A stretch of 64,000 nt of DNA, taken from the IMG/VR virus record IMGVR_UViG_3300050821_008386, positions 62,001 through 126,000 of that record; one strand, written 5' to 3'. The notes under the pieces were generated by a model. The model was given only the letters and a program-made list of their open reading frames with translations, did no database searches and had not been told where the DNA came from. The translations under genes were made by a program, and so were the position numbers. Below, piece after piece: positions 40,542-59,368 of this stretch (position 1 is the first letter of the stretch; each line of letters starts with the position of its first letter). The stretch comes from a virus.

Positions 40542-41987
40542 TTAGCCTTGTGGCAGATCTTCGAAAGCCTTATCCAGACCGCGGCGACCGCTCATTTCTG
40601 ATAACTTTTTCTTTTGCGGTTCTGGTTTGCCGCCGATCCCTGCACCGTTGCGTAACGGCGCGTCGGATACTTTGCGTTTGGTGGCGACTTCGTCACGGAG
40701 CTTTTTGATTTCAGATTCCAGCGTTTTGATATGGGTTTCTTTCTCAGTGACCGTCTTCTCTAATTCCGGCAACCGCGTCCGCATCTCGATGAAATCCAGG
40801 GCGTACCGGGCGGCCGTGCGCGGGCCTTTATTGAATTCGCCAATAACATTCGAAAACTGGCGTTCGAGTTCAGCAAATCTCTGATTGTGCTGATTGATCT
40901 CAGCGATCTTTGCCGGATCAGTCACGCCTTTAGTTTCCAGCGGCAACAGAGGTTTCAGATGCGCTTTATCGCTAGAAATCGCTTTCTCGACCTCGTCTCT
41001 GATCTGGAACGCGTAATCGTTACTGAACTGGGCGTTGCGCTCGTTCTGCCATTTCTGGTAGGCGTTAGGATCTTTGCCATATGTCTCAACAGCTTTATCG
41101 TGTTTCTCCTGTACCCGGAGCAGATCCGCGACTTTCGAGAGAACTTTCTGGCGAACAGCGTTATCCGCTTTGGTCATCGCGCCGATGACATTGTCACTCC
41201 ACCATTTGCTATCTACATCTTGTGGTTTGTAGTTCGTGGTCATCGTCTCCAGGAACTTGTCCACTTGCTCTTTGGGCGCGTCGAAATATTTGCTGGCTTC
41301 CTGCAGGACATCCACATACGCCTCCTGCATCGGCTTGAGGTAAGTGTCCTGATATTCTTTGGACTGTTTGTAATCAACCGCACGCGCCAGTCCGCGCAGA
41401 GTGTCTAGCTCTTTAGTGACTTCGGGCGAAAGCGCGTTAGTCTTCCACCCCTTAACTTTAGGCGCCAGATCGTCGAGGGTCGCAGCGATATCCTCGGGCG
41501 TATCCTGATAATTGTATCCAAGATCTCTCAGGAGCGGCCCGAGTTTATCGTATGCTTGCGCTTTAGCTTTGAACCCTTTGGCGATCGCTTTGACCTTCGC
41601 GAATTGCCCCTTCTGCTCTTCACTGGCCGAAGGCTGAAGCTCGAGCGAATCTATGTCGCCTGGAACGGCACCCACTGAGGCTGGGGCCGCTGGGCTAACC
41701 GGCGATTCTTTGGCCGTTTCCTTCTGTTCTGTTGGCGCAGTTGATTCCTCTGGAGCGGCAGACTCTTTGTCGGTTTCATTATTAACCGGTTCGGGTCTAG
41801 GCTCTTCTTTGGATTCCCTGACTGGTTCAGGACTGGGTTCAGTTGCAGCTTTTTCGTCCTGTTCCTTGAAAAAGGATGCAAACGTATCATCCAGTTCTCG
41901 CCTCTGCTTAGGCGTGGTGATCGTCTTGTCTAGCTGCGGATTAACGTAGTCGGGTTGTCCAGAGGGATGAACTAGAGGATCGTCCAT
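40542..41987 (-). CDS. Putative capsid scaffolding protein
   Basis: A 481-residue protein from the ATG at 41987 (a TTG start at 42014 would add nine residues). The first about 120 residues are very rich in Glu, Pro, Ser and Lys and likely disordered (EPSPEPVRESKEEPRPEPV). A long helical region follows (QFAKVKAIAKGFKAKAQAYD, then KVLSKVADLLRVQEKHDKAV). A coiled coil near residues 400-440 (LPELEKTVTEKETHIKTLES) is followed by a basic C-terminus (QKKKLSEMSGRRGLDKAF). Acidic start, helical body and basic end fit phage scaffolds, whose C-terminus binds the capsid protein. No motif is diagnostic. Confidence 0.65.
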   Translation of the reverse strand: MDDPLVHPSGQPDYVNPQLDKTITTPKQRRELDDTFASFFKEQDEKAATEPSPEPVRESKEEPRPEPVNNETDKESAAPEESTAPTEQKETAKESPVSPAAPASVGAVPGDIDSLELQPSASEEQKGQFAKVKAIAKGFKAKAQAYDKLGPLLRDLGYNYQDTPEDIAATLDDLAPKVKGWKTNALSPEVTKELDTLRGLARAVDYKQSKEYQDTYLKPMQEAYVDVLQEASKYFDAPKEQVDKFLETMTTNYKPQDVDSKWWSDNVIGAMTKADNAVRQKVLSKVADLLRVQEKHDKAVETYGKDPNAYQKWQNERNAQFSNDYAFQIRDEVEKAISSDKAHLKPLLPLETKGVTDPAKIAEINQHNQRFAELERQFSNVIGEFNKGPRTAARYALDFIEMRTRLPELEKTVTEKETHIKTLESEIKKLRDEVATKRKVSDAPLRNGAGIGGKPEPQKKKLSEMSGRRGLDKAFEDLPQG

Positions 41988-42041
41988 TGAGGTGGAAGAC
42001 CGTACCGCTGACAAGCGTGCGATTGCAAACTAATTCGGCGT

Positions 42042-43053: not shown

Positions 43054-43086
43054 ATGCAAGCGTATGCATTACATAATTCTCAATAA
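43054..43086 (+). CDS. Possible leader peptide (10 residues)
   Basis: ATG at 43054 lies 8 nt after the best ribosome-binding site of the region (GGAGG at 43041-43045) and encodes MQAYALHNSQ. It overlaps the start of the pilin-like gene in another frame. It could be a translational-coupling or leader peptide. An alternative is that the site serves the ATG at 43064. Confidence 0.25.
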   Translation: MQAYALHNSQ

Positions 43087-43345
43087 TATCCTTGGCTTGC
43101 TTGCAGCGACGATGGATGTCGATACGGCTATTGGAAAGCTACTCGGCCTCATCGTCAAGTTCGGTTGGGTGGGCGGCGTGGGGCTGATGGTGCTCGGCGG
43201 CGTCTCAGCGTGGAGAGAGCATAATCTGACTGCGATTTCCGGTATTCTGATCGCTATTGGTGTCGCCTGTTGCGGTCCTTCGATTGTCGGCACGTTGATG
43301 GCGGCAATGAGCGGATTGAACGCGCAGCTTAACCCCACAGATTAA
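43064..43345 (+). CDS. virB2-like: VirB2/TrbC-like pilin candidate
   Basis: A 93-residue protein from the ATG at 43064. It has a hydrophobic N-terminus and two transmembrane segments, about residues 28-46 (FGWVGGVGLMVLGGVSAW) and 53-78 (ISGILIAIGVACCGPSIVG), joined by a short basic loop (REHN), which is the topology of VirB2/TrbC propilins. VirB2 forms the pilus and channel rod of type IV secretion systems. It is the first gene of the cluster and is followed by VirB3- and VirB4-like genes, exactly as in canonical loci. Family called from size, topology and position. Confidence 0.6.
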   Translation: MHYIILNNILGLLAATMDVDTAIGKLLGLIVKFGWVGGVGLMVLGGVSAWREHNLTAISGILIAIGVACCGPSIVGTLMAAMSGLNAQLNPTD

Positions 43346-43348
43346 AAA

Positions 43349-43723
43349 ATGGCGGATACTCCCCCGCAGTTACAGATGATCCGCAACGACAACGCGGATG
43401 AGGTTCGGCCCGGTTGGGGCGTATTCGCAGGCCGATGGTCGATTGTTCCCTTTATCGCAGGGGCATGTTTCATCAGCCTGATGAACATCTCAGCGTTCAT
43501 GGGACTGGATCTGGTCAGTTCACTCATCTTTGCGCTCTCCCCGGCAACCTTGATGACGGTGGCTGTCATTGTTTTCGTAAACCAGAAACCGCCGGGATAC
43601 CCCTTGGAACTGGCTCAGATGTTCTGGTTCCGAGGGCACGAATGGCTCTACATCCATGGGTACACAGACGAGCCGCCTCAGATCTGGTATTCAGGTAAAC
43701 CAGTGAGGCACCCGAGGTCATGA
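43349..43723 (+). CDS. virB3-like: VirB3/TrbD-like inner-membrane protein
   Basis: A 124-residue protein with two adjacent hydrophobic segments, about residues 30-50 (SIVPFIAGACFISLMNISAF) and 55-77 (LVSSLIFALSPATLMTVAVI), then a soluble tail (KPPGYPLELAQMFWFRGHEW). This matches VirB3, a small inner-membrane partner of VirB4. Its end overlaps the VirB4-like start (ATGA at 43720), as in loci where the two are coupled or fused. Confidence 0.65.
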   Translation: MADTPPQLQMIRNDNADEVRPGWGVFAGRWSIVPFIAGACFISLMNISAFMGLDLVSSLIFALSPATLMTVAVIVFVNQKPPGYPLELAQMFWFRGHEWLYIHGYTDEPPQIWYSGKPVRHPRS

Positions 43724-46380
43724 ACCGCATCCCGAACGGTTACCTGATCGATCGCTGCAAAGTCTGGTGCGAACCGGATGGTCAATTCGTGGTCAGTAAA
43801 GGGTCCAAAGCGGAGTTTCCCGATCTCTCGACCTCCGATGGGCAACATTGGTTGAACCTTGAATCGTCTTTACGCCAGTTGATGCGGTCAGTGAACGAGA
43901 GTGAACGCGTCCAGATCCTGTTCTATACCGGGCACGAGTTTAATCAACCTCTCGATCGTTATGACCAGAAGACAGGGGCATGCAGGATAGAAATCTGCCG
44001 CGAAATACGCGAAGAGGTGTCGACCTATTTCCGTGATCGGATGCTGAACCAGAGTCTCGTCAACGCCAACGTCGAGATTCACGTCTCCAGCAAGTTCAAA
44101 GCTAAATCGTCGATGTTCGAGGATGCATTTGACGTTGTCCGCCGGAACGTCGAAGAACGAGGCGATTATTTCGATATGGTGGTCCGAGGGTTGGGCGGTT
44201 CAACTCAGCCTTTGGAGGACCGAGGTCATTACAACGCTCTGATGCGGCATTGGAGTCCCGGCACACCGTGTGGCAAGACGGACGATATTGATCTCAGTTC
44301 GTGTTTGGAAGATCTGGTCAGGCGTTCAGATGTGGCACCGAGAAACGGCAGCCGGGAAACCGCGCACGGCTTTTATCTGGACGGCAAATATGTCGGCGTT
44401 TTCGTCGTTAAAAAGATGCCAAACGCTACATGGCAAAAGACCATGCAACCTTTTGTCACGATGGCGATTCCAGGGCTGCGGATTTGCCTCAATATGCGCA
44501 AACTCTCTTCATTGGCTGAAGAGATGCATGATGACAAACGGGATTCCACGCTCTCGAAAAACGCTGATAGCGCACGGGCTGTAGCCGGGAGACTCAAACA
44601 TTTTGATCGGATCGTTCGGTTACAGAAAAACGAGGTGATGCCGTTCGCCGCTCAATTAATCATCAGCATTTATGCCGATTCACCAGATCAATTGGATAGC
44701 CGGATGAACGCGACTCGTGTGGCGCTCGAACATTGCGGATGCCAAGCGTTTAATCCTGCGCTGACCACGAGCTCAGTCGCTCTCTTTAATTGCTCGACAC
44801 CGGGATACGGACCATGGACAGGCTACACACCTTACTGGCTCAAGATCGACGACATTCATCTGGCGCATATGTGCCCGGTGGGGTCGACGCCAACGGGTAA
44901 ACTCGATCAAGCCGATTGGTTGGTTTGTGGTAACCAGAATAATCTGGTTGGGTTCCCGTTCTTTATCGGCAGCCAACCATCTGATCTCATCGTCATGGGG
45001 AGTAAAGGCGGCGGTAAAAGCGCTACTACCCAGTACATGCTGCTTCAGGGCGCCCATCAATTCGGGTTCTTAGGGTTTATCGATGAAGGCGCCTCATGGA
45101 TCGAGACGGCAAGTCTTTTGGATCCGACATCGCGCCCGATTATTGTCGGCTCAAATTCAGGGCACACCTTTAATCCACTGGATACAAAAGGACTCGCTAA
45201 ATCGCCGCAGCATACACGCAGTGCAATTGCTCTGATTCAACTGTTGGCTGGCAGAAGCGACGATAAAGATCGGGATGCTGATCAGGCAGCGTTGATATCG
45301 CAAACCGTCAAAGCCTTGTACGAACGCGAGTTCGCTTATTGGAAGGTCAGGAATCCCAATGATTATTATCAAGCGTGCCGGATAGCGAATTTGGCGTTAC
45401 GAACTGTGGGCGAACATTTCGTGGATGCCGTTCAATGGCTCAAAGAAATGAAGCGGACGTCCCCGGACAAATATCGCGAAATCGACGGTGCATTGTCCGA
45501 GTCCGATGCCATGGCGTTAGCGAACGATCGCGACCTGAGTCATTTCATCAGTGACGCAGCGTTTTCCATGTGGACGCCCGATATGTTCCCGACGCTCTTT
45601 CATCTATGGGACGAACTGAACGCTCGTAAACGCGAGAAAGGCGCGTCACCGCTCTACGGTCCTTTAGCTTCACGATTAGAGCAATGGTTAGCGAACGGCG
45701 ATTACGGGCCGATCGTCGATGGCGCGTCCAATATCGATTTAGGCACCAAGTTCATCACGCCTGAGAGTCCTCTGAAAGTGGTCCACTTCGAACTCGGCGA
45801 GATGAACAAATCAGAAGCGCGATTGAAAGAGGTCTTAGGATTTCTCCTCGCTAACGAGATGCGCGCAGTGGTGCAGAATATGCCGAGGGCGATCCGTAAA
45901 GGGGTGATCATCGAGGAAATGACCAGTTTCTTGCGAGTCCCTAATGCGCAGGAAATCGTCATCGATTACTCCGAGCGGATGCGGAAATACAATTGCTGGT
46001 TGGGATACGTCTTTCAGCAATATTCAGGACTGCTCAAAGCCGACAAACAGGTGGCTGAAGCGATCGTGGGTAATTCCTTGGCAATGATGCTGATGATGAA
46101 TAAAAACCCCGAAGACCTGATTGCCCTCAACGATTACGTGCGAATCCCTGAACCGATCCGGCAAGCCGTTCAACAGTTTCCGCCACCTGAAAGTCTCCGT
46201 GGACGTAAAGACGCTTATGCCGGGTGCGTTTACGTGGATAAATCAGGGGCCCGCCCGGAGTTCACGATCTGCCGGGTGATGATGAGTGAGAAAGTCGAAG
46301 CAATCACCAATTCAAGCGGCGACAGGTTCGACGCTAAACGCAAAGCACTGATGCAACCAAGAGAGATGGCTACCGTATGA
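43720..46380 (+). CDS. virB4-like: VirB4/TraC-type secretion ATPase
   Basis: An 886-residue protein of the usual size of VirB4 ATPases, which energise pilus assembly and transport at the inner membrane. Walker A is GSKGGGKS at residues 427-434, in the context SDLIVMGSKGGGKSATTQYM. A conserved FIDEGASWIETASLL follows, and Walker B is GVIIEEMTSF at 728-737. The N-terminal 400 residues carry the typical CagE/TrbE-like region with RHWSPGTPCG-type and LRICLNMRKLSSL segments. The end overlaps the lipoprotein gene (ATGA). It is the most certain member of the cluster. Related ATPases also occur in other DNA-translocating elements, so transport of DNA versus protein is open. Confidence 0.85.
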   Translation: MNRIPNGYLIDRCKVWCEPDGQFVVSKGSKAEFPDLSTSDGQHWLNLESSLRQLMRSVNESERVQILFYTGHEFNQPLDRYDQKTGACRIEICREIREEVSTYFRDRMLNQSLVNANVEIHVSSKFKAKSSMFEDAFDVVRRNVEERGDYFDMVVRGLGGSTQPLEDRGHYNALMRHWSPGTPCGKTDDIDLSSCLEDLVRRSDVAPRNGSRETAHGFYLDGKYVGVFVVKKMPNATWQKTMQPFVTMAIPGLRICLNMRKLSSLAEEMHDDKRDSTLSKNADSARAVAGRLKHFDRIVRLQKNEVMPFAAQLIISIYADSPDQLDSRMNATRVALEHCGCQAFNPALTTSSVALFNCSTPGYGPWTGYTPYWLKIDDIHLAHMCPVGSTPTGKLDQADWLVCGNQNNLVGFPFFIGSQPSDLIVMGSKGGGKSATTQYMLLQGAHQFGFLGFIDEGASWIETASLLDPTSRPIIVGSNSGHTFNPLDTKGLAKSPQHTRSAIALIQLLAGRSDDKDRDADQAALISQTVKALYEREFAYWKVRNPNDYYQACRIANLALRTVGEHFVDAVQWLKEMKRTSPDKYREIDGALSESDAMALANDRDLSHFISDAAFSMWTPDMFPTLFHLWDELNARKREKGASPLYGPLASRLEQWLANGDYGPIVDGASNIDLGTKFITPESPLKVVHFELGEMNKSEARLKEVLGFLLANEMRAVVQNMPRAIRKGVIIEEMTSFLRVPNAQEIVIDYSERMRKYNCWLGYVFQQYSGLLKADKQVAEAIVGNSLAMMLMMNKNPEDLIALNDYVRIPEPIRQAVQQFPPPESLRGRKDAYAGCVYVDKSGARPEFTICRVMMSEKVEAITNSSGDRFDAKRKALMQPREMATV

Positions 46381-46718
46381 TGATTCCCCGAACCGCGATA
46401 ATCTTCGCGCTCTTTACCGCCGGATGCGCGGCGCCGCGCCAGTATCAAGGATACCAAGTCGGGCGCGACTATTACGCGCACCTCGATTCTAAACAGAAAG
46501 AGGTCTTCGATGCCGGTGCCGAGTATGCTACCAACGATATGGTCCAGCGGGAGTACGACGTTGAACGCCGAGCGATGCGTCATGATCTGCCAGGTGCGCG
46601 GCAAACGACTCAATTAAACAAGAAAATCGTGCCCGTCTCCGTCGACAGTTATACCGGTCCAGACGGTGTCGAGCATGATGCCGGTTACAAGTTTATCGAA
46701 CTGAATTCGGTCCAGTAG
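46377..46718 (+). CDS. Lipoprotein of the T4SS-like cluster (VirB7-like position)
   Basis: A 113-residue protein with a signal peptide ending in a lipobox (TAIIFALFTAGCAAPRQ; Cys near residue 17). The rest is charged (AHLDSKQKEVFDAGAEYATN) with a short Gly-Tyr-rich end (SYTGPDGVEHDAGYKF). Lipoproteins of this size and position serve VirB7/TraV-like roles, anchoring VirB9 to the outer membrane. No motif proves it. Confidence 0.6.
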   Translation: MMIPRTAIIFALFTAGCAAPRQYQGYQVGRDYYAHLDSKQKEVFDAGAEYATNDMVQREYDVERRAMRHDLPGARQTTQLNKKIVPVSVDSYTGPDGVEHDAGYKFIELNSVQ

Positions 46719-46724
46719 AAAAGA

Positions 46725-47930
46725 GTGAAACGGTCGTGGCTGATAGTTGGCGTTCTTTTGCTCTTCGTGGGTAGATGCGAAGCGATCTATCCAGTGTACG
46801 ATGCCGCCAATTACGTTCAGAACGTGCTGAACTATATCAAAGCGGGATTGGCTTACGTTAAGGACGCAGAGATCGAGGTGAACACGAATTTGACCGTCCT
46901 TCATCAGATCACGCAGATAGAAAATGAGATCCTGGAACTAGAGAGAATGGGCGATCCGCGGGTCCTCATCAACCTTCCCGGCATCGAACAAATCGCTAAA
47001 CTTCAGCAGATCGTTATCCAAGCCCAGATCGATATCGCCAAGATCCGGGCATTCGTCAGCGCGGCCGGGATACAGGACAACTGCGACTCGATCATGCGGG
47101 CATACGGGTTCAGTTCGTGGCACGGATTCACCAGCGGATGGGGAGTAAAGTATTCGTGCACCGTACCGCTCCTGCAATTCTCAACGTCCGATTATCAGGC
47201 GGATTCATACGCTCAATCGCGCGTTCAACAGTTGATGACGCAAAAACAGGATCTGCTCGCGCAACGGGATATTGCGATTGCAGGACAGAAAGCGGCAACC
47301 GACGACACCACGAAAATGAGTTATGCCGCCCAGATAACCGCCCTGAACGGCGCTATTGCGGATCTCGATCAATCGATCAATCAAACACTGGCGTTAGCGA
47401 ACATCCAAGTGCGGATGAACGGATCAGCGCAGAACGTTTTTAACGGTATGTCAGGGCTACAGACCCTAGCGGCATTCCAGCAACAGGAAGAATACGGAAT
47501 AACGGCATTGGGCGGCACACCAACAGGAACCGCCCCCGGCTTACAGACAAACGGTACAGTAGTCGGCAACTCCAGCGAGTTCGGCTACATCGATAACCCG
47601 GCAATCGGCGGCACGGGCGATCCTGGAACATCCGGTTCATGGGATGTCGGAGCCGGGGGTGCCAATATCGGGTCACAAAACTCAACCGGGATAAGTTTAC
47701 CGCTGGCAACCGAAGTCGCGATGTTCGGTAGCGAATCCAATGCGCTCGGTCAGAATGTCATGGTGACCAATAATGCGACGGGCGCTTCGACAGTAACACA
47801 GATTGTTGATGTTGGGCCCGGCCAGTCATCGGTCGCTAAAGGCAACATCGTAGATCTTACGTACGGGACGGCAGCGGCCCTCGGGACTGAGGGAAAATCA
47901 ACCAACGTAACAGTGAGCAAAGTTCAATGA
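46725..47930 (+). CDS. VirB5/TrbJ-like protein with C-terminal RlpA-type DPBB domain
   Basis: A 401-residue exported protein with a signal peptide (WLIVGVLLLFVGRCEA) and GTG start. Residues 20-250 are helical: IYPVYDAANYVQNVLNYIKA, then LTVLHQITQIENEILELERM and QQLMTQKQDLLAQRD. This matches the coiled-coil VirB5/TrbJ group (pilus tip or assembly proteins). After a Gly/Thr-rich linker, the last about 80 residues read ESNALGQNVMVTNNATG, TQIVDVGPGQSSVAKGNIVD and LTYGTAAALGTEG, the double-psi beta-barrel fold of RlpA-type peptidoglycan-active proteins. The fusion could combine a pilus tip with cell-wall opening, the task of VirB1 in other systems. Confidence 0.6.
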   Translation: MKRSWLIVGVLLLFVGRCEAIYPVYDAANYVQNVLNYIKAGLAYVKDAEIEVNTNLTVLHQITQIENEILELERMGDPRVLINLPGIEQIAKLQQIVIQAQIDIAKIRAFVSAAGIQDNCDSIMRAYGFSSWHGFTSGWGVKYSCTVPLLQFSTSDYQADSYAQSRVQQLMTQKQDLLAQRDIAIAGQKAATDDTTKMSYAAQITALNGAIADLDQSINQTLALANIQVRMNGSAQNVFNGMSGLQTLAAFQQQEEYGITALGGTPTGTAPGLQTNGTVVGNSSEFGYIDNPAIGGTGDPGTSGSWDVGAGGANIGSQNSTGISLPLATEVAMFGSESNALGQNVMVTNNATGASTVTQIVDVGPGQSSVAKGNIVDLTYGTAAALGTEGKSTNVTVSKVQ

Positions 47931-48313
47931 TCAAGGAAGTCATAGCAGCAACCGCGCTTGCGTCGAGCGCATACGCCAGCGGCAGTTTGCCAGTGGCGCA
48001 CGAGTATAATCCGGCAAAACATTCTGGTGAATACGTAGCAACGGTCACTCGAGGCGGCCAATCAGCGCAGGTCGAGGTCAAGGTATTCGGCCAGGAAGAC
48101 GTGATCGCCGCACGCCTCGCCGGCGTGGCGCTGACAAGAGGATATCCGAACCATGCGCCAGCTGCCGAGATGGAAGCAGTGGTCAGGCAGAAAGCGATCG
48201 AACGCTGCGGTAACGATGAGGATATGGTCAGGATGTTCGTCAATGATGCCCGTGTTGCTTATATCACCCGGATGCGGGCGCTGAACGCCAAGACGGGATT
48301 GAGTATCCGATGA
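47927..48313 (+). CDS. Exported hypothetical protein
   Basis: A 128-residue protein with a probable signal peptide (VIAATALASSAYASGSLP). The mature part includes GEYVATVTRGGQSAQVEVKV, GQEDVIAARLAGVALTRGYP, EAVVRQKAIERCGNDEDMVR. It overlaps both neighbours by ATGA junctions. No family recognised; a periplasmic accessory of the secretion-like complex is likely from the context. Confidence 0.55.
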   Translation: MIKEVIAATALASSAYASGSLPVAHEYNPAKHSGEYVATVTRGGQSAQVEVKVFGQEDVIAARLAGVALTRGYPNHAPAAEMEAVVRQKAIERCGNDEDMVRMFVNDARVAYITRMRALNAKTGLSIR

Positions 48314-48744
48314 AGATCGCGGCAAAACCGACTCGCTATAACGGCGTCGAATTCAAGTCACGTCTTGAGGCGCGTTTTGCCGAGATGCTCACGCACAAGC
48401 GGATGTTATGGGAGTACGAACCTCTTTCTACTTGGTTCGGGACGTATCAGCCAGATTTCTACCTCCGCCATATGGGACACCAAGGCTTGTACGTCGAGAT
48501 CAAACCTCGGGAATATATCGCAGAATTACAGATGTTCTGGAACGCCATATGGTCCGCTCCGGCGCCGTGGGTCTGCATAGATAAAGCGCATGGATTCCGA
48601 GATCAATGGGTGATAATTCAAGGTAACAGCAGGTTCAAAAGCGGGCTGCAGTTCTCTTCTGTCACCGTTCCTGTGAGTTTCAAGTCCTCCGGCGATCTCC
48701 ATTACTTGGAAATAGAGACGGAAGGACTCCTCTATTCGCCATAA
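48310..48744 (+). CDS. PD-(D/E)XK-type nuclease-like protein
   Basis: A 144-residue protein with the motif order of a small restriction-type nuclease fold: YNGVEFKSRLEARFAEML (acidic helix), WEYEP, YQPDFYL (Asp at the metal site), and LYVEIKPREY (E-x-K). Related proteins in phages include Holliday-junction and T7 endonuclease I-type enzymes. Its presence inside a secretion-like operon, between an exported protein and the VirB6-like gene, is unusual. It has no signal peptide, so it would act in the cytoplasm, perhaps on the DNA transported or on host DNA. Confidence 0.65.
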   Translation: MKIAAKPTRYNGVEFKSRLEARFAEMLTHKRMLWEYEPLSTWFGTYQPDFYLRHMGHQGLYVEIKPREYIAELQMFWNAIWSAPAPWVCIDKAHGFRDQWVIIQGNSRFKSGLQFSSVTVPVSFKSSGDLHYLEIETEGLLYSP

Positions 48745-48749
48745 AAACC

Positions 48750-48778
48750 TTGACTGTGCTTGCGATAGCATGGTAGAC
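48750..48778 (+). promoter_or_regulatory. TTGACT box upstream of the VirB6-like gene
   Basis: TTGACT at 48750-48755, followed by GTGCTTGCGA, in a 48-bp gap. The hexamer and following bases resemble those at 43022 (TTGACTTGCATTGCAA). A weak -10 candidate, GTAGAC at 48773-48778, is 17 bp away. It may be a second promoter for the distal part of the cluster. Confidence 0.35.
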
Positions 48779-48792
48779 GCAATGCAAATCCG

Positions 48793-49752
48793 ATGACTAA
48801 CCAGTTCTTACAGGCCATCTTTCCCGGGTTCAGCGCGGGCCTCCAATCCCTCCACAACGTCCTGATAGGGCCTGCGGCGTTGATCTGTATCGCTGGCATG
48901 TACCTACGGCTTCTGAAAGCCGGAGCGTCCACAAACGAAGTCTACGACGTTCTGGTGCGTGTTGGATTAGTCGTTGTGGTCATCAGCCAGGTGTACACGA
49001 TTGGCGATATCCTCGTCCAACTGGCGACTGATCTGGTGACAGCTACCGGATGGAAAATCGATCAGAACATGTGGCAGGATTATACGGTCGCCGTGATGAC
49101 CAAATACAATCCGGTCACCCAACCCGGCAACAATAACCCGCTCCAGTTTTTTTCGAACGCGTTTCAGGGGGCGTGGATTGGCGCATGGGCCACGTTCGTC
49201 TATGGATTCTCCATTTTCGCTTCTGGACTGATGATGCTCTCGCGACTTCTGCAATCGATCCTGATTAATGTTGAGATGGGACTATCTCCCTTGTTCCTCG
49301 CGGCGATCGTGGTGCCGTCGCTTGTCACCCTCGCAACGCGTTGGGGTACAACGTTTATAGCTCTCTGCATGTGGACCGTGGGGTTTGCCATTGCGGACCT
49401 CGGCACCAAAGGATTTATGGATTTAGCGGTTAATCCCGGCAATAACGCAGTGCTTGGCGCGGCCAACGCTGTCGGTGCGTCCACGATGCTTTGGGTTTTC
49501 ATGGGATTGTGGATCTGTTTCGTCTCGGTGATGGGACCGATACTGATCTGGAAAGCCATCGTGAGTAACGGCAGTCACGGTCTGCACATGATCCCCATGG
49601 CGATGATGGGCGCGGTATTCGCCGGAACCGCGATGGCAAAAGGCGCGATCGGCAACGTTGCGGCAGGTGGCAACGCCGCAGTGACACTCAGTTCGCCTCC
49701 CGCTTCTCGTAACGGCGTTGTCCGTCCCGGCTTTGCTAATTCACGACCATGA
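48793..49752 (+). CDS. virB6-like: VirB6/TrbL-like polytopic membrane protein
   Basis: A 319-residue protein with six or seven hydrophobic segments, e.g. GPAALICIAGMYLRLL, VGLVVVVISQVYTIGDIL, WATFVYGFSIFASGLMM, LFLAAIVVPSLVTLATRW, FIALCMWTVGFAIADLG and WVFMGLWICFVSVMGPILIW, plus a large periplasmic-type loop (TGWKIDQNMWQDYTVAVMT). This is the topology of VirB6/TrbL, the inner-membrane channel component. The C-terminus is Gly/Ala-rich and polar. It is positioned between VirB5- and VirB8-like genes, as in P-type systems. Confidence 0.7.
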   Translation: MTNQFLQAIFPGFSAGLQSLHNVLIGPAALICIAGMYLRLLKAGASTNEVYDVLVRVGLVVVVISQVYTIGDILVQLATDLVTATGWKIDQNMWQDYTVAVMTKYNPVTQPGNNNPLQFFSNAFQGAWIGAWATFVYGFSIFASGLMMLSRLLQSILINVEMGLSPLFLAAIVVPSLVTLATRWGTTFIALCMWTVGFAIADLGTKGFMDLAVNPGNNAVLGAANAVGASTMLWVFMGLWICFVSVMGPILIWKAIVSNGSHGLHMIPMAMMGAVFAGTAMAKGAIGNVAAGGNAAVTLSSPPASRNGVVRPGFANSRP

Positions 49753-49928
49753 GAAAACCAATCCAGCTAACGTCCACATCACAGATATCGAAGGGAACGG
49801 GAGAAATCGTCACCACGTTATTCGCGTTGTCGGATGACGGTAAAATGTTCGTCTTAAAAAAGGGAGAGAAAGAATGGGAATGGATGGAAGTCCCCCCGCT
49901 CCCGCAACCGGCAGGACCAGAGTTGTGA
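49749..49928 (+). CDS. Hypothetical 59-residue protein
   Basis: A short frame starting in the VirB6-like stop (ATGA) with the product MRKPIQLTSTSQISKGTGEI, then a central SDDGKMFVLKKGEKEWEWME segment and a Pro-rich end. The GKMFVLKKGEKEWEWM stretch looks like a beta hairpin. It lacks a signal peptide. Unknown; the phased overlaps on both sides support translation. Confidence 0.5.
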   Translation: MRKPIQLTSTSQISKGTGEIVTTLFALSDDGKMFVLKKGEKEWEWMEVPPLPQPAGPEL

Positions 49929-50017
49929 AAGCAATGAAAACGATCCTCTTAATTTACTTTGCTCTCTCCGTCGTTGAAGCATTCCTCAAACTCTACGTGG
50001 CCTTGGCTGCAAAATGA
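49925..50017 (+). CDS. Membrane micropeptide (30 residues)
   Basis: GTG start overlapping the upstream TGA (GTGA), ending in an ATGA overlap with the next gene. The product, VKAMKTILLIYFALSVVEAF then LKLYVALAAK, is one transmembrane helix. Small single-helix proteins can stabilise membrane complexes; function not known. Confidence 0.5.
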   Translation: MKAMKTILLIYFALSVVEAFLKLYVALAAK

Positions 50018-50349
50018 CAAAGCCGCACGAATTACACCTGCCGCCGCATGACGACATGATCACTCTGTGGTCCGGGGACCATTACACCGTAGCCCTGCAC
50101 CAAGACGGGTTTATCCTCGCCGTCTATCTTGCGTGGTCACTGATTGGTCTGGCAGTCTATCTATTCGGTCACGGACTAGCGCCGCGTCCACGCACTCTCT
50201 TAGGTTTATTCTGCGGGCCGGGTGCGTGGATTGCCGCCGGGTACAAATGTTATCACTTGGAAAAGCATCGGCGCGACGCGCTTCCACCACCTCTGCCGAA
50301 GCTCAAACCGCCTCCACTAAGACATTGGGAATTCAAGCCAAGGAACTAA
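50014..50349 (+). CDS. Membrane protein of the T4SS-like cluster
   Basis: A 111-residue protein with two hydrophobic segments, about residues 32-52 (GFILAVYLAWSLIGLAVYLF) and 62-78 (TLLGLFCGPGAWIAAGY). The C-terminus is proline- and lysine-rich (ALPPPLPKLKPPPLRHWEF), so it faces the cytoplasm or binds a partner. No family recognised. It sits directly before the VirB8-like gene. Confidence 0.55.
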   Translation: MTKPHELHLPPHDDMITLWSGDHYTVALHQDGFILAVYLAWSLIGLAVYLFGHGLAPRPRTLLGLFCGPGAWIAAGYKCYHLEKHRRDALPPPLPKLKPPPLRHWEFKPRN

Positions 50350-50988
50350 ATGAGCGCAATCGGAAATAAGATCAGGTCAGCATCTAAAAGCGCCAAACTA
50401 TGGGCGACGCTCTTCGTTGTTTACGTGTTTGCCAGAGAAGGCATCGGCGCATGGCAACTCTATGATGCCACTCATTCCGCCTTGCGCGGATTTGTGGTTA
50501 ACGATGAGACTTATTACGTCGGTCACGCTGACCCGGTTCTCCAGCAACGCGAAACGCATATCCGTCTGGCGAAAACCGCAGCGATCGCAATGTACGGACG
50601 CAACCCGTACGGACTGGATCAGATGGAAACCTTGACCCGGATATTCAGTACGCCATGCCAGAAATTGATTCTGCAACACGTTGGGGATGACGCGGGAACA
50701 TTCGCTTCATCCAGTATGAGTCAGGATTTCAAGCCGGATCGACCGATCATCGAAGTTGCCCGTGATAATACCTCTTGCACCATGCTGGTCGAAGGCGACG
50801 TGGTTCAGGTACGAGTTGAGCACGGAGTATCGATCCCTGATTCAAAACCGATGCGCCTCGTTTTTCGCTTGGAACGCAATGCAAGATTCGGTGAAGACGG
50901 GAAATTCCCGATGGTGGTCACCAAATTCACTGCGGACTACATCAAAGAGCATTCCCCTGAAACCCACACTGTAGCGGACACCAAATAA
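50350..50988 (+). CDS. virB8-like: VirB8/TraE-like inner-membrane/periplasmic protein
   Basis: A 212-residue bitopic protein: a short basic cytoplasmic start (NKIRSASKSAK), one membrane segment at about 17-33 (LWATLFVVYVFAREGIG), then a periplasmic domain of about 175 residues (FVVNDETYYVGHADPVLQQR, CTMLVEGDVVQVRVEHGVSI, MRLVFRLERNARFGEDGKFP). Length and topology match VirB8/TraE, which has an NTF2-like periplasmic fold and nucleates the inner-membrane complex. Position directly before VirB9- and VirB10-like genes supports the call; sequence motifs are not decisive. Confidence 0.6.
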   Translation: MSAIGNKIRSASKSAKLWATLFVVYVFAREGIGAWQLYDATHSALRGFVVNDETYYVGHADPVLQQRETHIRLAKTAAIAMYGRNPYGLDQMETLTRIFSTPCQKLILQHVGDDAGTFASSSMSQDFKPDRPIIEVARDNTSCTMLVEGDVVQVRVEHGVSIPDSKPMRLVFRLERNARFGEDGKFPMVVTKFTADYIKEHSPETHTVADTK

Positions 50989-51966
50989 ATGAATCCCCGA
51001 ACAATCAGGCGAGCGTGGGTCATCACCCTCCTCGTTCTCGCGACGATCTTGTTGATAACGGATTTGTCGTTCTCGCAAGGTATCTCCACTAAACCCATTA
51101 ACCCGAAACTGCCGACGCGAATCACCTTAAGCAGGGCCACAAGCACCACTATTTTGTTTCCTTCACAGTTTTCAGGGGTCTACGCGCTAGGGCTCGTTTT
51201 CAAAGATAAAGACACCAAGGGCAACTTGGTCGGGACAGTCCAAGGATGGTACGAAACGCAGCGACCCACGCCGATTCTGATCCTGCATTCATTAGTCGAT
51301 AATCTCGACACGTTCATGACCGTCTATATGAACGATCAACTCTACACATTCGAACTGGTTACAGGTCCGTATCCTGATGTGTCACTGACACTGACCAGCG
51401 GTAACGCGCCAGCGTCTTCAACGAAACTTCCCGAGATCGATGAGGACACTGTGGTCAAGATGCGTCCACGATACGAACCGCAACTGTTAGCTGACATCAT
51501 GGATCTGGCGCGAGAAGCGCCGTTAATCAAAGCGAGTTATCCAGAAGCGTACGCGGGATACTCTGAGCGCAACGATATCCCGTACATCTCGGATGACGGT
51601 TTCGTACGTACCACAGTCACCCTGATTCAGAAGTTCAGCGATCGGGACGCTATCGTGATCAGCGGGAAAGCGGAGAACCTGACAAATACTCCTGTTCCAT
51701 TTGATACCGCCCATGTCAGCATGGCAGTTGGCACTGTCCTGAAACCGATCACGGTTCTTACTCCGACACGACCGATTCCGGCCAATAAAGCGGTTAATTT
51801 TACCGCGATCACAATAGGGGATGTCGGAGGCGGTCGCGCTGATATTGCGCTGGCAAACGAGTTCAGGTTGATCGTCGATTCAGGACATCATTCGGCACCC
51901 AGTGAGCCAACAGTCCCGGTCTTGCCTCCCGCGCCGCTCCTGCCACCGAAAGGATCCGTAAAATGA
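50989..51966 (+). CDS. virB9-like: VirB9/TraK-like outer-membrane core protein
   Basis: A 325-residue exported protein with an N-terminal hydrophobic segment (AWVITLLVLATILLITDLSF). The mature part is beta-rich (PTRITLSRATSTTILFPSQF, ILILHSLVDNLDTFMTVYMN, TTVTLIQKFSDRDAIVISGK) and ends in a Pro-rich tail (VPVLPPAPLLPPKG). An early TTILFP strand plus a long beta-rich C-terminal half is the pattern of VirB9/TraK. It would pair with the lipoproteins and the VirB10-like protein as the core complex. Its end overlaps the next gene (ATGA). Confidence 0.6.
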   Translation: MNPRTIRRAWVITLLVLATILLITDLSFSQGISTKPINPKLPTRITLSRATSTTILFPSQFSGVYALGLVFKDKDTKGNLVGTVQGWYETQRPTPILILHSLVDNLDTFMTVYMNDQLYTFELVTGPYPDVSLTLTSGNAPASSTKLPEIDEDTVVKMRPRYEPQLLADIMDLAREAPLIKASYPEAYAGYSERNDIPYISDDGFVRTTVTLIQKFSDRDAIVISGKAENLTNTPVPFDTAHVSMAVGTVLKPITVLTPTRPIPANKAVNFTAITIGDVGGGRADIALANEFRLIVDSGHHSAPSEPTVPVLPPAPLLPPKGSVK

Positions 51967-53165
51967 GAGCGTTTTTAAAGAACGTCTTCTCGCAAAAAGG
52001 CGCGGTCGGACTGGCTATTTGTCTGGTGGGCATCTGGCTGATTCATAACGCGCTAGTAACCCGAGAACATAACGCGCAAATGGCGGACGCTAAACGGCCA
52101 AAACAACCGTTAGCGCAGACTAATCCGAGTACGGTAGTTAATCCCGCAGTCGCGCAACCTGCGGTGATTGCGGACGGGAAAGAGCGGACCGGCCTTAACT
52201 ATCATGCCAACGTCGAACAACCGATCGTGATCGAACCGGAAGCGACGCCGCAACCGAAAGTCGAAGATCTGCCGCCGATGGTCTTATGCGATTTCCCGGT
52301 GCCGACACCGACACCGTCACCGACTCCGAGCGCTCCCAAAGCGCAACGTCTCAAGCGCTGGTTGCCGCGTGGAGTCTATTTCCGAGTCGAGACACAAGGT
52401 GCCTTGATGTCTTCGCACATGGATACTCCCGTGCAGGTCAAGGTGACCGAAGACGTCTATCAATGGGACGGCGGCCGTTCTGAATTGATTATTCCCGCCG
52501 GGACAAGGTGCAGCGCGTGGGCTACGCAAGGTTACACCCGTGATCGCCTTGAGGTAAAAGGCGACTGGATAATGGTGTTCCCGACAAACGGGTTCGAGTT
52601 GGAGTTCACCGGGATACTTTGCGAACAGGAATTTGACCCGCAACTGAACCAGTTCGGCAAGTTCGATAAGACAGCAGGGTTATTAGGCAAACTGATCGAG
52701 AGCGACGGTTATGTGCGGTTGAAAGCGGCGTTGGGCCTTGTTCTCCAGACGGCAGCGGATAGCGCCAGTTCGTTCGCGTCCAGTGCGCTTCAGACCTCGA
52801 TGCGCGGAGGGACAAGCGTCAGTTATAACGTTCCGTCGACTACACCATTCACCAACGAATGGATCGAGCAACTGGTTAACGGCCATCATACGGCGATCAA
52901 TGATACCCTCTACGTGCTGGTCCCGTCAGGGCATCAGGGATGGATCTTCACCACTTCAGTCATCGATCCTGACGTAGCCTCTATCGGGGCACGGATACAG
53001 GAAGAAGAAAAAGCCCGTAAACAGCGGGAAGAACAGCAGTACGAACGTACACAAAGCCCGGTCGATGCCGTTCTCCTTAAGCGCCTTCAGCAACCCGCCG
53101 AACAAACCCAAATCGATCCATTATCCAATGAACAGAAACCTGTTTCTGCCGCTCATTTTAATTAG
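51963..53165 (+). CDS. virB10-like: VirB10/TrbI/TraB-like core complex protein
   Basis: A 400-residue protein with the signature layout of VirB10: a short cytoplasmic start, one membrane helix (AVGLAICLVGIWLIHNAL, residues 16-33), a Pro-rich periplasmic linker (PVPTPTPSPTPSAPKAQR), and a C-terminal beta-barrel-type domain with GVYFRVETQGALMSSHMDTP, ELIIPAGTRCSAWATQGYT, WIMVFPTNGFELEFTGILCE. IPAGTR near residue 175 is a typical VirB10 element. VirB10 spans both membranes and gates the outer-membrane channel. The last 38 nt overlap the next lipoprotein gene. Confidence 0.72.
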   Translation: MRAFLKNVFSQKGAVGLAICLVGIWLIHNALVTREHNAQMADAKRPKQPLAQTNPSTVVNPAVAQPAVIADGKERTGLNYHANVEQPIVIEPEATPQPKVEDLPPMVLCDFPVPTPTPSPTPSAPKAQRLKRWLPRGVYFRVETQGALMSSHMDTPVQVKVTEDVYQWDGGRSELIIPAGTRCSAWATQGYTRDRLEVKGDWIMVFPTNGFELEFTGILCEQEFDPQLNQFGKFDKTAGLLGKLIESDGYVRLKAALGLVLQTAADSASSFASSALQTSMRGGTSVSYNVPSTTPFTNEWIEQLVNGHHTAINDTLYVLVPSGHQGWIFTTSVIDPDVASIGARIQEEEKARKQREEQQYERTQSPVDAVLLKRLQQPAEQTQIDPLSNEQKPVSAAHFN

Positions 53166-53724
53166 CACCCTTGCCGGATGCGCCCAGCAACAAACCAAGA
53201 CCCGCGAAATAACCGTGGTCAAACTGGATAAACTGCCAGCGTCCGCCAAAAAGAAAGGGCCAACCCAAAAGTTCACTGCGCAAGTCAACCTGACACCGGG
53301 CAAACTCAAGCCGCGGATGGTCGAGATCTATGATATCGGTCCAACCGTCGACAGCGACGGGAACCTTGTCGGTGAACACAAATATTACAAGGTGGTGGAG
53401 ACTGAACGCTGGACTTATATCCCCCATACGCCGGCCACATTCCCGGCGTTCAAACAGGGTAAACCGAAAGTACAAGAGGCGGATGCGGTCGATCAAGCCA
53501 AGCGGGTGATGGAAGAGCTCAAAGCGGCGACCGCACAAGCCCGAAGTCAGATGCCTGCGGTTCAACCCGTAGCTAATCCCGGTCCAGGCGGAAACGCGAC
53601 AGCAGAAGCACCGTTACCACAGACTGAAGGATTATCCCCGGTCCAGAGCGAGGTGGACACCGCTCTTTCTCCTGAGAGGCAACAGGCGCTTAAAACGTTC
53701 GATCAACAGGCGCAGCAACCGTGA
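53128..53724 (+). CDS. Lipoprotein of the T4SS-like cluster (TraV/VirB7-like candidate)
   Basis: A 198-residue protein beginning MNRNLFLPLILISTLAGCAQ, a signal peptide with lipobox LAGC (Cys18). A longer reading from 53065 would destroy the signal, so the start is at 53128. The rest has MVEIYDIGPTVDSDGN and an Ala/Gln/Pro-rich C-terminus, QAKRVMEELKAATAQARSQM then PVANPGPGGNATA. It follows the VirB10-like gene, the position of the lipoprotein TraV in F-type loci. Likely part of the outer-membrane ring; no motif proves it. Confidence 0.6.
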   Translation: MNRNLFLPLILISTLAGCAQQQTKTREITVVKLDKLPASAKKKGPTQKFTAQVNLTPGKLKPRMVEIYDIGPTVDSDGNLVGEHKYYKVVETERWTYIPHTPATFPAFKQGKPKVQEADAVDQAKRVMEELKAATAQARSQMPAVQPVANPGPGGNATAEAPLPQTEGLSPVQSEVDTALSPERQQALKTFDQQAQQP

Positions 53725-54599
53725 CCCTGTACGAAACCCTCACGTCCCAACTGATAGGGCAGAACGAGGTACTGTTCGAGGTTGCGGACCTGTTGGAACG
53801 GGCACAGGAAGGAATGTGCTACCAGGGGCAACCGCGTGCGTCAATCTTGATGCTAGGCCCGACAGGCGTAGGGAAGACTGAATGTGCCTTGATCGCCTGC
53901 AAAGCGCTGTACGGGACTCCTGAGCAGTGGATGGCCCGGTTCGATATGTCCGAGTACATGACTGCTGACTCTGTGCTTAACCTTCTGGGAACGACACAGT
54001 ATCGAGGCACGTTCGAGCATAAGACGAAGGCTATGAAAACAGGGGGCGTTATCCTCTTCGATGAAATCGAGAAAGCGCACTCCGAAATTCTCAATACGCT
54101 CCTGCAGATATTGTCTGCTGGCAGGATAACCACAGGACAGGGAGAAGTCTTGGATCTCACGGATTTCATCATTCTCGCGACAACAAACATCGGGTCACGA
54201 ATCCTGATGGAAAGCCGGGATGACCGATGGGAAGTGGTGAGAGACAGGACCATCCGCGCAGCGCTTCAAGAGATCAGCCCTGAGATCCTGAATCGATTCG
54301 ATCTTCTGGCGGCATTCAACAAGCTCAAACCCGAATCAATGGCAGAGATCACGGATCTGCATGTGGAAACCGTGATCGCCATCCAAAGAGAGTTGAAAAA
54401 TCAGGTCACGGTCGATCGATCAGCGCGCGACCATATCCAGAAGGCCGGGTTCAGCGACATATTCGGAGCGCGTCCCGTCCGCCGGGAGGCGATGAAGATC
54501 ATTTCGAGGGCAATCAGGGAGAAACGGTCGGCGCCGGGTGAATCGGTGTCGGGCACCATCACCTATAACGCAAAAACCAATCGCATCAGCATTGCATGA
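53721..54599 (+). CDS. AAA+ ATPase, ClpA/ClpB D2-like
   Basis: A 292-residue protein with only the second AAA+ module of ClpA/B-type unfoldases. Walker A is GPTGVGKT at 46-53, Walker B is ILFDEIEK at 111-118, sensor 1 is ILATTNIGS, the arginine finger region is ILNRFD, and the C-terminal small domain has FGARPVRREAMKIISRA. No N-domain, D1 or ClpP loop (IGF/L tripeptide) is seen. It has a GTG start overlapping the lipoprotein stop. In P-type loci virB11, a hexameric ATPase, takes this place; here a different hexameric ATPase does. Confidence 0.85.
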   Translation: MTLYETLTSQLIGQNEVLFEVADLLERAQEGMCYQGQPRASILMLGPTGVGKTECALIACKALYGTPEQWMARFDMSEYMTADSVLNLLGTTQYRGTFEHKTKAMKTGGVILFDEIEKAHSEILNTLLQILSAGRITTGQGEVLDLTDFIILATTNIGSRILMESRDDRWEVVRDRTIRAALQEISPEILNRFDLLAAFNKLKPESMAEITDLHVETVIAIQRELKNQVTVDRSARDHIQKAGFSDIFGARPVRREAMKIISRAIREKRSAPGESVSGTITYNAKTNRISIA

Positions 54600-54757
54600 C
54601 CGAGAAGGAGCATCTGGACGCGCAAATTACCGTCCGAGTGACCGACGAGACTTACAGCAAACTTGAGGCTCAAGCCAAAAAAGAAGGCAAGACCAAAAGC
54701 GACCTGATCAGAGAGGCAGCAGAGGAGAAATTAGCTAAACATGATAAAGCCAAGTGA
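54596..54757 (+). CDS. Ribbon-helix-helix DNA-binding protein
   Basis: A 53-residue protein: EKEHLDAQITVRVTDETYSK then LEAQAKKEGKTKSDLIREAA. This is the ribbon-helix-helix pattern (antiparallel strand, then two helices). Its ATG overlaps the AAA+ stop (ATGA). Such proteins serve as autoregulators or DNA-binding partners in conjugation loci (TraY/MobC-like) and phages. Likely controls the divergent promoter region at 42.9-43.1 kb; inference. Confidence 0.7.
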   Translation: MTEKEHLDAQITVRVTDETYSKLEAQAKKEGKTKSDLIREAAEEKLAKHDKAK

Positions 54758-55137: not shown

Positions 55138-55887
55138 TTAGCCCGTGACAGCGGCGAGATCTGATTGCAGCGACGCCATGTCTATTCCTGCCGGTGATTT
55201 CCCGGCTTTTAACCAGTCCGGGCTGAGAATGGCGTACGCTTCGTCGCAGTAGGCGTCCCAGAATTCCCACGACATCCGCATCAGTTGTCCCCACGTCACC
55301 ACGGTCAGTCCGCCTTTGTCGTATTCAACGACGATGACGCAATGACCGCCCCACGAGCCCGGTTGACAGTCCGGGTTCCATGTCGGTCCAGCCACTACCC
55401 ATGACGGTTGGTTCTGAGCCGAGATCGGTAAGGCAACACCGATTAAAACCGTCCCGAAGACCAGTAGCGTCTCTTTGACGTGATCTTTGTTCCCGGTTTC
55501 CAGAGCGACATAAGCGTCAATCTTGTGGCCGCCGATACCCGTTTGCCGCCAATAGTTGAGGACATCAACCAGATTGCATCCGTTATCGTTGACGCCAGTG
55601 GCCGGGTTATATCCTGACACTGCGGAATAAGCGGCGATGATCTGGCTATCGGGTATTACGACGGGGGTCCCGGTATTCTGGGTCCATCCAAGGATCGCGT
55701 GGCCGGGTCCGGCTATGGCGCAATCACCGATCGTATCGTTCTTCATCATTCCCCATTGTGTCCGGCTATCAGTCCAATCTTTGTTGGCCGGGATAGGCGG
55801 TAACAGGCTGGGCGAACGGTAGTCCGCGAGGCGTAAAGTGCGCGGGTTGTAAACAAATGGTTTTTTACCGAGTTTATAGAGAGGCAT
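55138..55887 (-). CDS. Papain-like (C1/C39-type) cysteine protease-like protein
   Basis: A 249-residue protein, the only minus-strand gene between 43 and 64 kb. The nucleophile region is NDTIGDCAIAGPGHAILGWT (Cys near residue 56) and the His region is GSWGGHCVIVVEYDKGGLTV with a following TWGQLMRMSWEFW. The Gln position before the Cys is replaced by Ile/Gly-Asp, as in phage and environmental homologues. No signal peptide. It could cleave a phage or host protein, or be a virion-borne enzyme. Activity is not proven by the motifs. Confidence 0.65.
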   Translation of the reverse strand: MPLYKLGKKPFVYNPRTLRLADYRSPSLLPPIPANKDWTDSRTQWGMMKNDTIGDCAIAGPGHAILGWTQNTGTPVVIPDSQIIAAYSAVSGYNPATGVNDNGCNLVDVLNYWRQTGIGGHKIDAYVALETGNKDHVKETLLVFGTVLIGVALPISAQNQPSWVVAGPTWNPDCQPGSWGGHCVIVVEYDKGGLTVVTWGQLMRMSWEFWDAYCDEAYAILSPDWLKAGKSPAGIDMASLQSDLAAVTG

Positions 55888-58519: not shown

Positions 58520-59368
58520 GTGTCGAGCACGTTTCCCGGTTCGGCGGACATCTTCAAGACCATCCCCACTCCGACAACCACTCCGACTAACCAGTCAGAC
58601 GCGAGTGACGATACTCTTTCCACCCGGTTACAGCAGCATTCGGACGCCATCTCAGCGGTTGAAGCGTGGTTACTGGCTAACATCACCTCGCTGACGGAAC
58701 CGTCTGGGGTCATTAAAGCGTTCGCTGGGACCAGCGCTACCGTGCCTTCGGGATACCTCCTTTGCGACGGGACCGCTTACAGTCGCACCACCTACAGCAC
58801 CCTCTATGCTGCGATCGGAGTAACGTTTGGAGCAGGTGACGGGAGCACCACGTTCAATGTGCCAGACGGTCAGGGGCGCGCGCTGATCGGCGCCGGAGCC
58901 GGATCAGGATTAACCAATAGGGTTCTGGCGAGCAAGATTGGTGAAGAAACTCATCAACTCAGCACTGCTGAGTTAGCATCCCACAATCACACTCAGAACG
59001 CCCATACCCACGCTGACGCAGGACACGCGCACTCAGACACTGGGCATACTCACAGTGATAACGGTCACGCCCATGGCATCAGCGATCCGGGGCATGTTCA
59101 CGGATATGTTAATGCGATCCTTTCTTCTCCCGGCAGCAGTGTTGCTGGGGGCACCACTTATCAAGCCGGGAACGCCGCGACCAATCCCAGCGGCACCGGT
59201 ATCGGTATCAACACCGGATTCGCCGCGATCGCTACCGGATTCGCATCCATCGCTACCGGATTCGCGTCCATCGGTGCAGTGACGCCAACCAACAACGCCG
59301 CCGGAAGCGGTACGGCTCACAACAATATCCAGCCCAGCCTGGTTTGTAACTGGATCATCAAGACGTAG
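58520..59368 (+). CDS. Tail collar fibre protein with HxH metal motifs
   Basis: A 282-residue protein with GTG start. After an N-terminal helix comes the collar domain (GVIKAFAGTSATVPSGYLLC, AIGVTFGAGDGSTTFNVPDG). Residues 155-195 hold many His pairs: HNHTQNAHTHADAGHAHSDT and GHTHSDNGHAHGISDPGHVH. H-x-H repeats coordinate iron ions along the trimer axis in phage fibre needles such as T4 gp37. A tandem repeat, FAAIATGFASIATGFASIG, follows near 59220-59276. It ends CNWIIKT, typical of collar fibre tips. Confidence 0.85.
   Translation: MSSTFPGSADIFKTIPTPTTTPTNQSDASDDTLSTRLQQHSDAISAVEAWLLANITSLTEPSGVIKAFAGTSATVPSGYLLCDGTAYSRTTYSTLYAAIGVTFGAGDGSTTFNVPDGQGRALIGAGAGSGLTNRVLASKIGEETHQLSTAELASHNHTQNAHTHADAGHAHSDTGHTHSDNGHAHGISDPGHVHGYVNAILSSPGSSVAGGTTYQAGNAATNPSGTGIGINTGFAAIATGFASIATGFASIGAVTPTNNAAGSGTAHNNIQPSLVCNWIIKT

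Follow-up and report, generated by a model that had tools for sequence, protein, structure and literature searches.

Does a gene set resembling a type IV secretion system (T4SS), found inside a bacteriophage genome, belong to the phage, and does it serve to move DNA? The question is raised by a 64,000-nucleotide stretch of viral DNA (the window), bases 62001-126000 of the 131,760 bp IMG/VR virus record IMGVR_UViG_3300050821_008386 (hereafter G000), a soil-type bacteriophage genome of ~132 kb. An initial annotation, made from the letters alone, had described an operon of VirB-like genes in the window. We think it probable that the window is part of a conjugative phage whose single genome combines genes for building virions with genes for conjugation; this phage is most likely a phage-plasmid, with a host among the Verrucomicrobiota. 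Moreover, G000 and two or more related phage genomes appear to possess two independent means of spread.

A T4SS operon in the window

The operon (43064-54599; positions are those of the window unless given as contig positions) consists of intact, closely packed open reading frames (ORFs), all on the plus strand. They encode, in order, a VirB2-like protein, a VirB3-like protein, VirB4, a lipoprotein, a TrbJ/VirB5-like protein, a VirB6-like protein, VirB8, VirB9, VirB10, a second lipoprotein and a Clp-type AAA+ ATPase. The ORFs, order, strand, coordinates and dense, intact packing were all as first described; genes for proteins of 128, 144 (nuclease-like), 59 and 111 amino acids (aa), which that description did not mention, also lie within the operon. 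The central claim, a T4SS gene set within a phage genome, held: the operon is intact, sequence matches support VirB4 and VirB10, the fold supports VirB8, and the set recurs in three further IMG/VR elements.

The 886-aa ATPase encoded at 43720-46380 has both of the Walker motifs ascribed to it (Walker A, GSKGGGKS, at residue 427; Walker B, VIIEEM, at residue 729). It matches TIGR02746 (TraC-F-type; E=5.3e-18) and TIGR00929 (VirB4; 2e-9), its profile finds the solved VirB4 structure 4ag5 in the PDB (7.6e-7), and on these sequence matches we regard its identity as VirB4 as secure. While no VirB4 relative was found among 50,697 phage records, the best relative among 72,556 plasmid records, a full-length match (1e-46), lies on plasmid CP007054.1 of Opitutaceae strain TAV5 (Verrucomicrobiota). 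The TAV5 plasmid also carries a TrwC relaxase of the MOBF family and a coupling protein, and homologues of VirB8, VirB9, VirB10 and the AAA+ ATPase were found on this plasmid and/or a Termitidicoccus plasmid.

A DNA pattern placed on the Walker-B region of VirB4 retrieved four viral contigs (G001-G004), all of which carry genes of the window's T4SS operon. G002 is a contig of 66,519 bp, G003 a closed circle of 65,084 bp (123-bp end overlap) and G004 a circle of 39,074 bp (97-bp end overlap); G001 is a fragment assembled from a different sample; it spans the closure point of G003, to which it is 99.97-100% identical. VirB4 of the window is 35-40% identical to its viral relatives and 24% identical to that of the TAV5 plasmid. 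Because the gene order is shared with three other elements and, in part, with the Opitutaceae plasmid, it is far beyond chance.

VirB10 (51963-53165; 400 aa) has homologues in the relatives (E 2e-54 to 1e-34). Its direct family match is weak (NF038091, E=0.087); orthologues that align to it exceed the cut-off of the Pfam family TrbI/VirB10 (PF03743), with values of 4.5e-10 for TAV5, 4e-12 for G003 and 3.1e-14 for G002, and by transitivity through these sequences we consider its identity secure. The sequence profiles of VirB8, VirB9, VirB10 and VirB5 gave chance matches only against the PDB, and VirB8 and VirB9 were therefore assessed by their predicted folds. VirB8 (50350-50988; 212 aa) has homologues in three elements and on the TAV5 plasmid and no match among sequence families. 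Its AlphaFold2 model, of low confidence (mean pLDDT 54), matches structures of DotI/IcmL, TraM, R388 TrwG, CagV and VirB8 (best E=6e-5), with other NTF2-like proteins in the same match list as expected for this fold; the modelled fold thus supports the VirB8 identity. VirB9 (50989-51966; 325 aa) has a C-terminal beta-domain (residues 192-296) and homologues with E 1e-52 to 5e-41. Its AlphaFold2 model, which is weak, had a sole Foldseek match below 1e-3, at a low TM-score: a chain of the outer-membrane core complex of the F plasmid (E=6.8e-6). With additional support from its place in the operon and its conservation, VirB9 is a likely assignment. The candidates did not turn out to belong to other families, as VirB8 and VirB10 resolve as named and VirB9 leans the same way.

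The VirB2, VirB3, VirB5 and VirB6 candidates matched no curated family above cut-off; they are putatively assigned by position and order, membrane topology and homologues in the relatives. Profile searches against VirB families, which had been proposed as a check, thus bore out VirB4 and, through its orthologues, VirB10, and left these four below cut-off and VirB8 without a sequence-family match. The VirB2-like pilin candidate (43064-43345; 93 aa from an ATG, in an ORF open from a TTG at 43022) has two hydrophobic helices in a transmembrane scan, a match to TrbC (PF04956) at just E=0.12 and a G004 homologue at the equivalent place (E=2e-5). The VirB3-like protein (43349-43723; 124 aa) has two predicted transmembrane segments and homologues 5' of virB4 in G002, G003 and G004 (E 5e-18 to 6e-12). 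The same three elements hold homologues of a small lipoprotein with a TAGC lipobox, encoded 3' of virB4 (46377-46718; E 7e-6 to 8e-5), of the TrbJ/VirB5-like secreted coiled-coil protein (46725-47930; 401 aa, with a signal helix; E 6e-38 to 3e-15; weak match to DUF4141, 0.034) and of the VirB6-like protein, polytopic in a transmembrane scan (48793-49752; 319 aa; E 2e-22 to 4e-20).

A 111-aa protein with one transmembrane segment (50014-50349; E=1.3e-6 to the G002 copy) is conserved in the related phages, where its gene likewise separates virB6 from virB8. The 128-aa protein (47927-48313) has a signal-like stretch at its N terminus and no family match. The second lipoprotein (53128-53724; 198 aa; LAGC lipobox) occupies the VirB7/TraV position, with homologues at 4e-8 and 1.6e-4 and a TraV match at just E=0.44. 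The Clp/HSP100 D2-type AAA+ ATPase (53721-54599; 292 aa; AAA_2, 7.6e-33) is 42-44% identical to the copies in G002, G003 and G004 and ~40% identical to that of the TAV5 plasmid, and is a conserved T4SS-linked component. The operon as first described ends with a candidate small protein of 53 aa that resembles ribbon-helix-helix proteins by sequence (54596-54757, plus strand).

Scans for promoters and terminators gave nothing exceeding chance. Recognisable Shine-Dalgarno sequences precede few starts in 43064-54757. In the relatives, extra genes occur elsewhere in the virB operon (positions are those of G003, locus L019): a possible homing-endonuclease-like gene lies ahead of virB4 (3234-3731), and a small protein encoded after virB4 in G002 and G003 (6324-6680) has a start resembling single-stranded DNA-binding protein.

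The same phage genome encodes a relaxase and a coupling protein

G000 is a phage genome, as judged by its genes for the terminase large subunit (55909-57762, plus strand; phrog_2, 1.1e-12, and distant phage terminases by tblastn), a tail collar/fibre protein (58520-59368, plus strand; phrog_9116, 3.6e-28) and an endolysin (5805-6470, minus strand; phrog_291, 3.4e-28), and by RecT, exonuclease, DnaB, primase, Mom-like and several DNA methyltransferase genes on the rest of the contig. The operon had been placed between scaffold and terminase genes: the terminase was confirmed, while the 'scaffold' gene (40542-42014) had no confirming match. Because the operon adjoins the terminase gene, its products could be imagined as part of the virion or of a device that delivers the phage genome rather than as a channel of the donor cell. 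We find this scarcely credible, as the operon is also present on the TAV5 plasmid and in G004, neither of which has recognised virion genes, and the lipoproteins, VirB6 and VirB8 are parts of the cell envelope.

Outside the window, G000 encodes a MOBF/TrwC relaxase-helicase (contig 9354-12125; 923 aa) with a TrwC domain (PF08751, 5.2e-53), a helicase domain (AAA_30, 4e-36) and an intact N-terminal Tyr and HxH motif. It also encodes a TrwB/TraG-type coupling protein with a Walker A motif (contig 16856-18232, minus strand; PF10412, 2.9e-12; PF12696, 4e-9) and a ParA-type ATPase (contig 2059-3015). A relaxase and a coupling protein above family cut-offs are present in all four elements (G000, G002, G003 and G004), so that each of them combines these two proteins with a T4SS; ParA was found in G000 and G004. 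Relaxase, coupling protein and T4SS together are the defining set of self-transmissible elements. DNA conjugation is therefore the best explanation and, on gene content, is strongly favoured over the effector export and superinfection control that had been suggested alongside it. Apart from VirB11 and a recognised origin of transfer (oriT), G000 appears to hold a full conjugation set. ParA suggests a plasmid-like resident state of G000.

The conjugation genes of G000 lie in three places (9.4-12.1, 16.9-18.2 and 105-117 kb of the contig), and terminase, tail, lysis and phage replication genes lie between them.

Virion and conjugation modules are linked in related phages

G002 and G003 carry, in addition to the conjugation genes, virion genes for a portal (2.5e-52 in G003), a head protease, a major head protein, a major tail protein, a tape measure protein and tail assembly. 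In both, the terminase, relaxase, coupling protein and T4SS genes adjoin one another in the same order, and their proteins are ~60-80% identical between the two. For both the conjugation and the virion genes, the proportion of synonymous differences (pS) between them is 0.72-0.84 and that of non-synonymous differences (pN) 0.13-0.27; the synonymous distance (dS) is mostly saturated, and these values thus give no exact ratio. Since pS is saturated and pN low in both modules, both are under purifying selection and have been retained together.

The virion module of G002 and G003 appears to be of siphovirus type and unrelated to that of G000: with the exception of fibre-like proteins, the G000 virion genes had no detectable homology to the G002/G003 head and tail module. 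Therefore, virion modules unrelated to one another have come to accompany the conjugation module, which implies at least one gain, loss or swap. In a seven-gene tree, G004 groups with G002 and G003 (support 100), and G000 lies outside under TAV5 rooting; single-gene trees have lower support, and the VirB10 tree places G004 differently. G002 and G003 encode an integrase-family recombinase, which could act in dimer resolution or in integration, whereas none was found in G000. Among the matches listed for G004 there was no structural family, and antirestriction and replication initiation families were present; G004 looks like a plasmid. The expectation that the same cluster would recur in related viral contigs was thus borne out by G002 and G003, where the T4SS genes accompany phage genes with the terminase adjacent, and in part by G004, which has the operon without recognised virion genes.

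The main rival to a conjugative phage is that these elements are ordinary conjugative plasmids with an inserted prophage, or cointegrates, in which the virion genes are passengers and the unit is not propagated as such a phage. Consistent with this, some conjugative plasmids have a portal gene of the DUF935 (Mu-like) type: of 40 plasmid records that matched a portal, 14 were typed as conjugative. The G003 portal belongs to this broad family, and the sister circle G004 lacks recognised virion genes. Yet the shared gene order and the similar divergence and constraint of both modules in G002 and G003, as well as the interleaving of conjugation and phage genes in G000, disfavour a recent insertion. 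Moreover, a search for Mu-type transposases, run without a positive control, gave no match. We consider this explanation unlikely.

Scans of viral and genome contigs with single proteins or two sequences, with VirB4 or the terminase as query, found nothing. A scan with the Clp-type ATPase gave 80 loci, and profile searches detected other T4SS proteins only in one of them, L035, which is part of G003; a relaxase scan revealed no additional conjugative phage. As to the host, the best VirB4 relative lies on an Opitutaceae plasmid, and the G003 terminase and portal are nearest to those of Akkermansia phages.

The T4SS region belongs to its contig

A plasmid T4SS could have been fused to a phage contig by mis-assembly, as all contigs are metagenomic. 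L035, which comes from yet another sample, matches G003 without a difference along 9,551 bp of the operon and departs from it for the final 906 bp (9552-10457); this end is unrelated to G003, breaks within the coupling-protein gene and is either chimeric or a real variant. By contrast, the T4SS region does not stand out from the rest of its contig in tetranucleotide profile (20th percentile of distance). The 144-aa nuclease-like gene inserted in the operon (48310-48744; weak DUF1064/endonuclease match) is a paralogue of the contig gene at 22347-22877 (L002, 2347-2877), in the early region 88 kb away (44% identity, E=6e-22). Finally, the combination of phage genes and T4SS recurs in independent, diverged assemblies and in one closed circle. 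In total, mis-assembly, which the initial annotation had raised at both junctions, is highly improbable, and on these sequence features we regard a chimeric assembly of G000 as excluded.

A conjugative phage-plasmid as the favoured interpretation

Several observations weigh against a conjugative phage. No portal or capsid protein was recognised in G000 by PHROGs, and the virion genes recognised in this phage are those for terminase, tail collar fibre and endolysin only. The ends of G000 have 11 bp in common, which hints at a circle and leaves closure unproven, and no replication initiator was identified in it. The close relatives are metagenomic contigs throughout, none of them grown. VirB11 was sought with T2SSE, which gave no match above cut-off in the four elements while the positive control matched. 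Searches for oriT by inverted repeats gave short repeats only near the relatives' relaxases, and none near that of G000. F-type systems are likewise not known to have a VirB11, and its absence thus bears on the P-type label only: the canonical P-type order claimed for the operon stands as a gene order, but because VirB4 is closest to F-type TraC and VirB11 was not found, the system is not a plain VirB/P-type one.

The missing oriT would also fit a T4SS that is real but serves effector export, entry exclusion, or as a pilus or adhesin, in which case the TrwC-like protein would be a replication initiator. T4SSs are often repurposed. Moreover, the G000 coupling protein is of a lineage distinct from that of G002-G004 (21% identity to G004), and thus the parts are not strictly co-inherited. 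Against such a role, a relaxase with a helicase domain, a coupling protein and a T4SS occur together in all four elements, and the ATPase and relaxase motifs of G000 are intact; we judge it improbable.

Building on the gene content, the presence of both gene sets on a single DNA molecule and their conservation under purifying selection in the relatives, we propose a model of conjugative transfer. The genome would reside in the cell as a ParA-partitioned circle. The MOBF relaxase-helicase would nick a putative oriT and unwind one strand, and the TrwB/TraG coupling protein would pass the relaxase with its bound DNA to the channel formed by VirB2-VirB10 and powered by VirB4, through which the single strand would enter a neighbouring cell. 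The Clp-type AAA+ ATPase may do the unfolding or assembly work done elsewhere by VirB11; that it substitutes for VirB11 is a guess, prompted by the ATPase always being present and by VirB11 not being found. Upon induction, the same genome would be packaged by its own terminase and exit as a virion. More tentatively, and as a possibility that we hold to be slightly short of even, these elements may represent a Verrucomicrobiota clade of conjugative phages with two selected, complete and mutually independent transfer machines (virion and MOBF conjugation), a conjugation module that has joined two or more unrelated virion modules, and a Clp-type unfoldase in place of VirB11.

If correct, such a phage would have two host ranges, one limited by receptors as a virion and one possibly broader via conjugation, and could bypass receptor loss by conjugating; the choice of one genome between killing its host and donating itself would become testable. 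The operon also draws attention to an AAA+ ATPase that is linked to T4SSs lacking a recognisable VirB11, and the genomes provide concrete search targets in cultured Verrucomicrobiota.

Other features

Two tail-collar/fibre genes of G000 (window 58520-59368 and contig 61486-62400) lie on opposite strands, are 65-68% identical and could encode alternative receptor-binding proteins. Between the T4SS operon and the terminase, a minus-strand gene (55138-55887; 249 aa) resembles papain-like peptidases by eye and matches no family. A run of minus-strand genes at 27675-40537 appears sugar- or methyltransferase-like by eye and includes a glycosyltransferase-like protein at 39047-40537. Together with the several DNA methyltransferases, G000 encodes a Mom-like modification protein, a PAPS reductase and a queuine tRNA-ribosyltransferase-like protein, a gene content which suggests that the phage DNA is modified. 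Finally, locus L003 encodes a 3,555-aa protein (915-11582, minus strand) with a single PHROG match (8.8e-13, to a family of unknown function); it is possibly a polyvalent injected protein of the kind described in PMC5512222.

Comparison with known systems

Phages and conjugative plasmids are usually treated as separate routes of gene transfer. Neither half of the phages described here is new in kind, and some conjugative plasmids carry a phage portal gene; in the open-licence literature on conjugative phages, phage-plasmids with a T4SS, and Verrucomicrobia, we found no precedent for an element that unites virion genes with a relaxase, a coupling protein and a T4SS. Phi1207.3 has been called a 'conjugative prophage' and was formerly described as moved by conjugation; a 2014 paper on it mentions neither a relaxase nor a type IV system (PMC4260502), and a 2023 study describes it as a temperate phage (PMC9927172).

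The plasmids TAV5 CP007054.1 and Termitidicoccus mucosus NZ_CP109797.1 resemble the window system in their homologous VirB4, VirB8, VirB10, Clp-type AAA+ ATPase and MOBF relaxase, with weaker-scoring homologues of VirB6 (TAV5) and VirB9 (the TAV5/Termitidicoccus mucosus plasmids). They differ from it in being plasmids with no virion genes noted, at ~20-40% identity, and the TAV5 T4SS genes are split among several places. The Akkermansia phages Chambord and Chantilly share with G003 a terminase (34-39% identical) and, in Chantilly, a portal (33% identical), but have genomes of 30-37 kb, and no VirB4 relative turned up among the 50,697 phage records. Systems of the F/R388 type have in common with that of the window a MOBF TrwC relaxase-helicase, a TrwB/TraG-like coupling protein, a TraC-like VirB4, and VirB8, VirB9 and VirB10, and F is not known to have the VirB11 for which no match was found here; the window system differs in its divergence, with most parts under curated cut-offs, and in the Clp-type AAA+ ATPase within the operon.

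P1-type phage-plasmids similarly combine virion genes and plasmid partition genes on one element, and rarely have even a relaxase: in P1-like phage-plasmids, a relaxase or oriT is missing in all but two cases, and P1-derived elements that gained a mob gene or oriT have lost phage function and are mobilisable only (PMC10879196). By contrast, G000, G002 and G003 carry a relaxase, a coupling protein and a T4SS alongside their virion genes.

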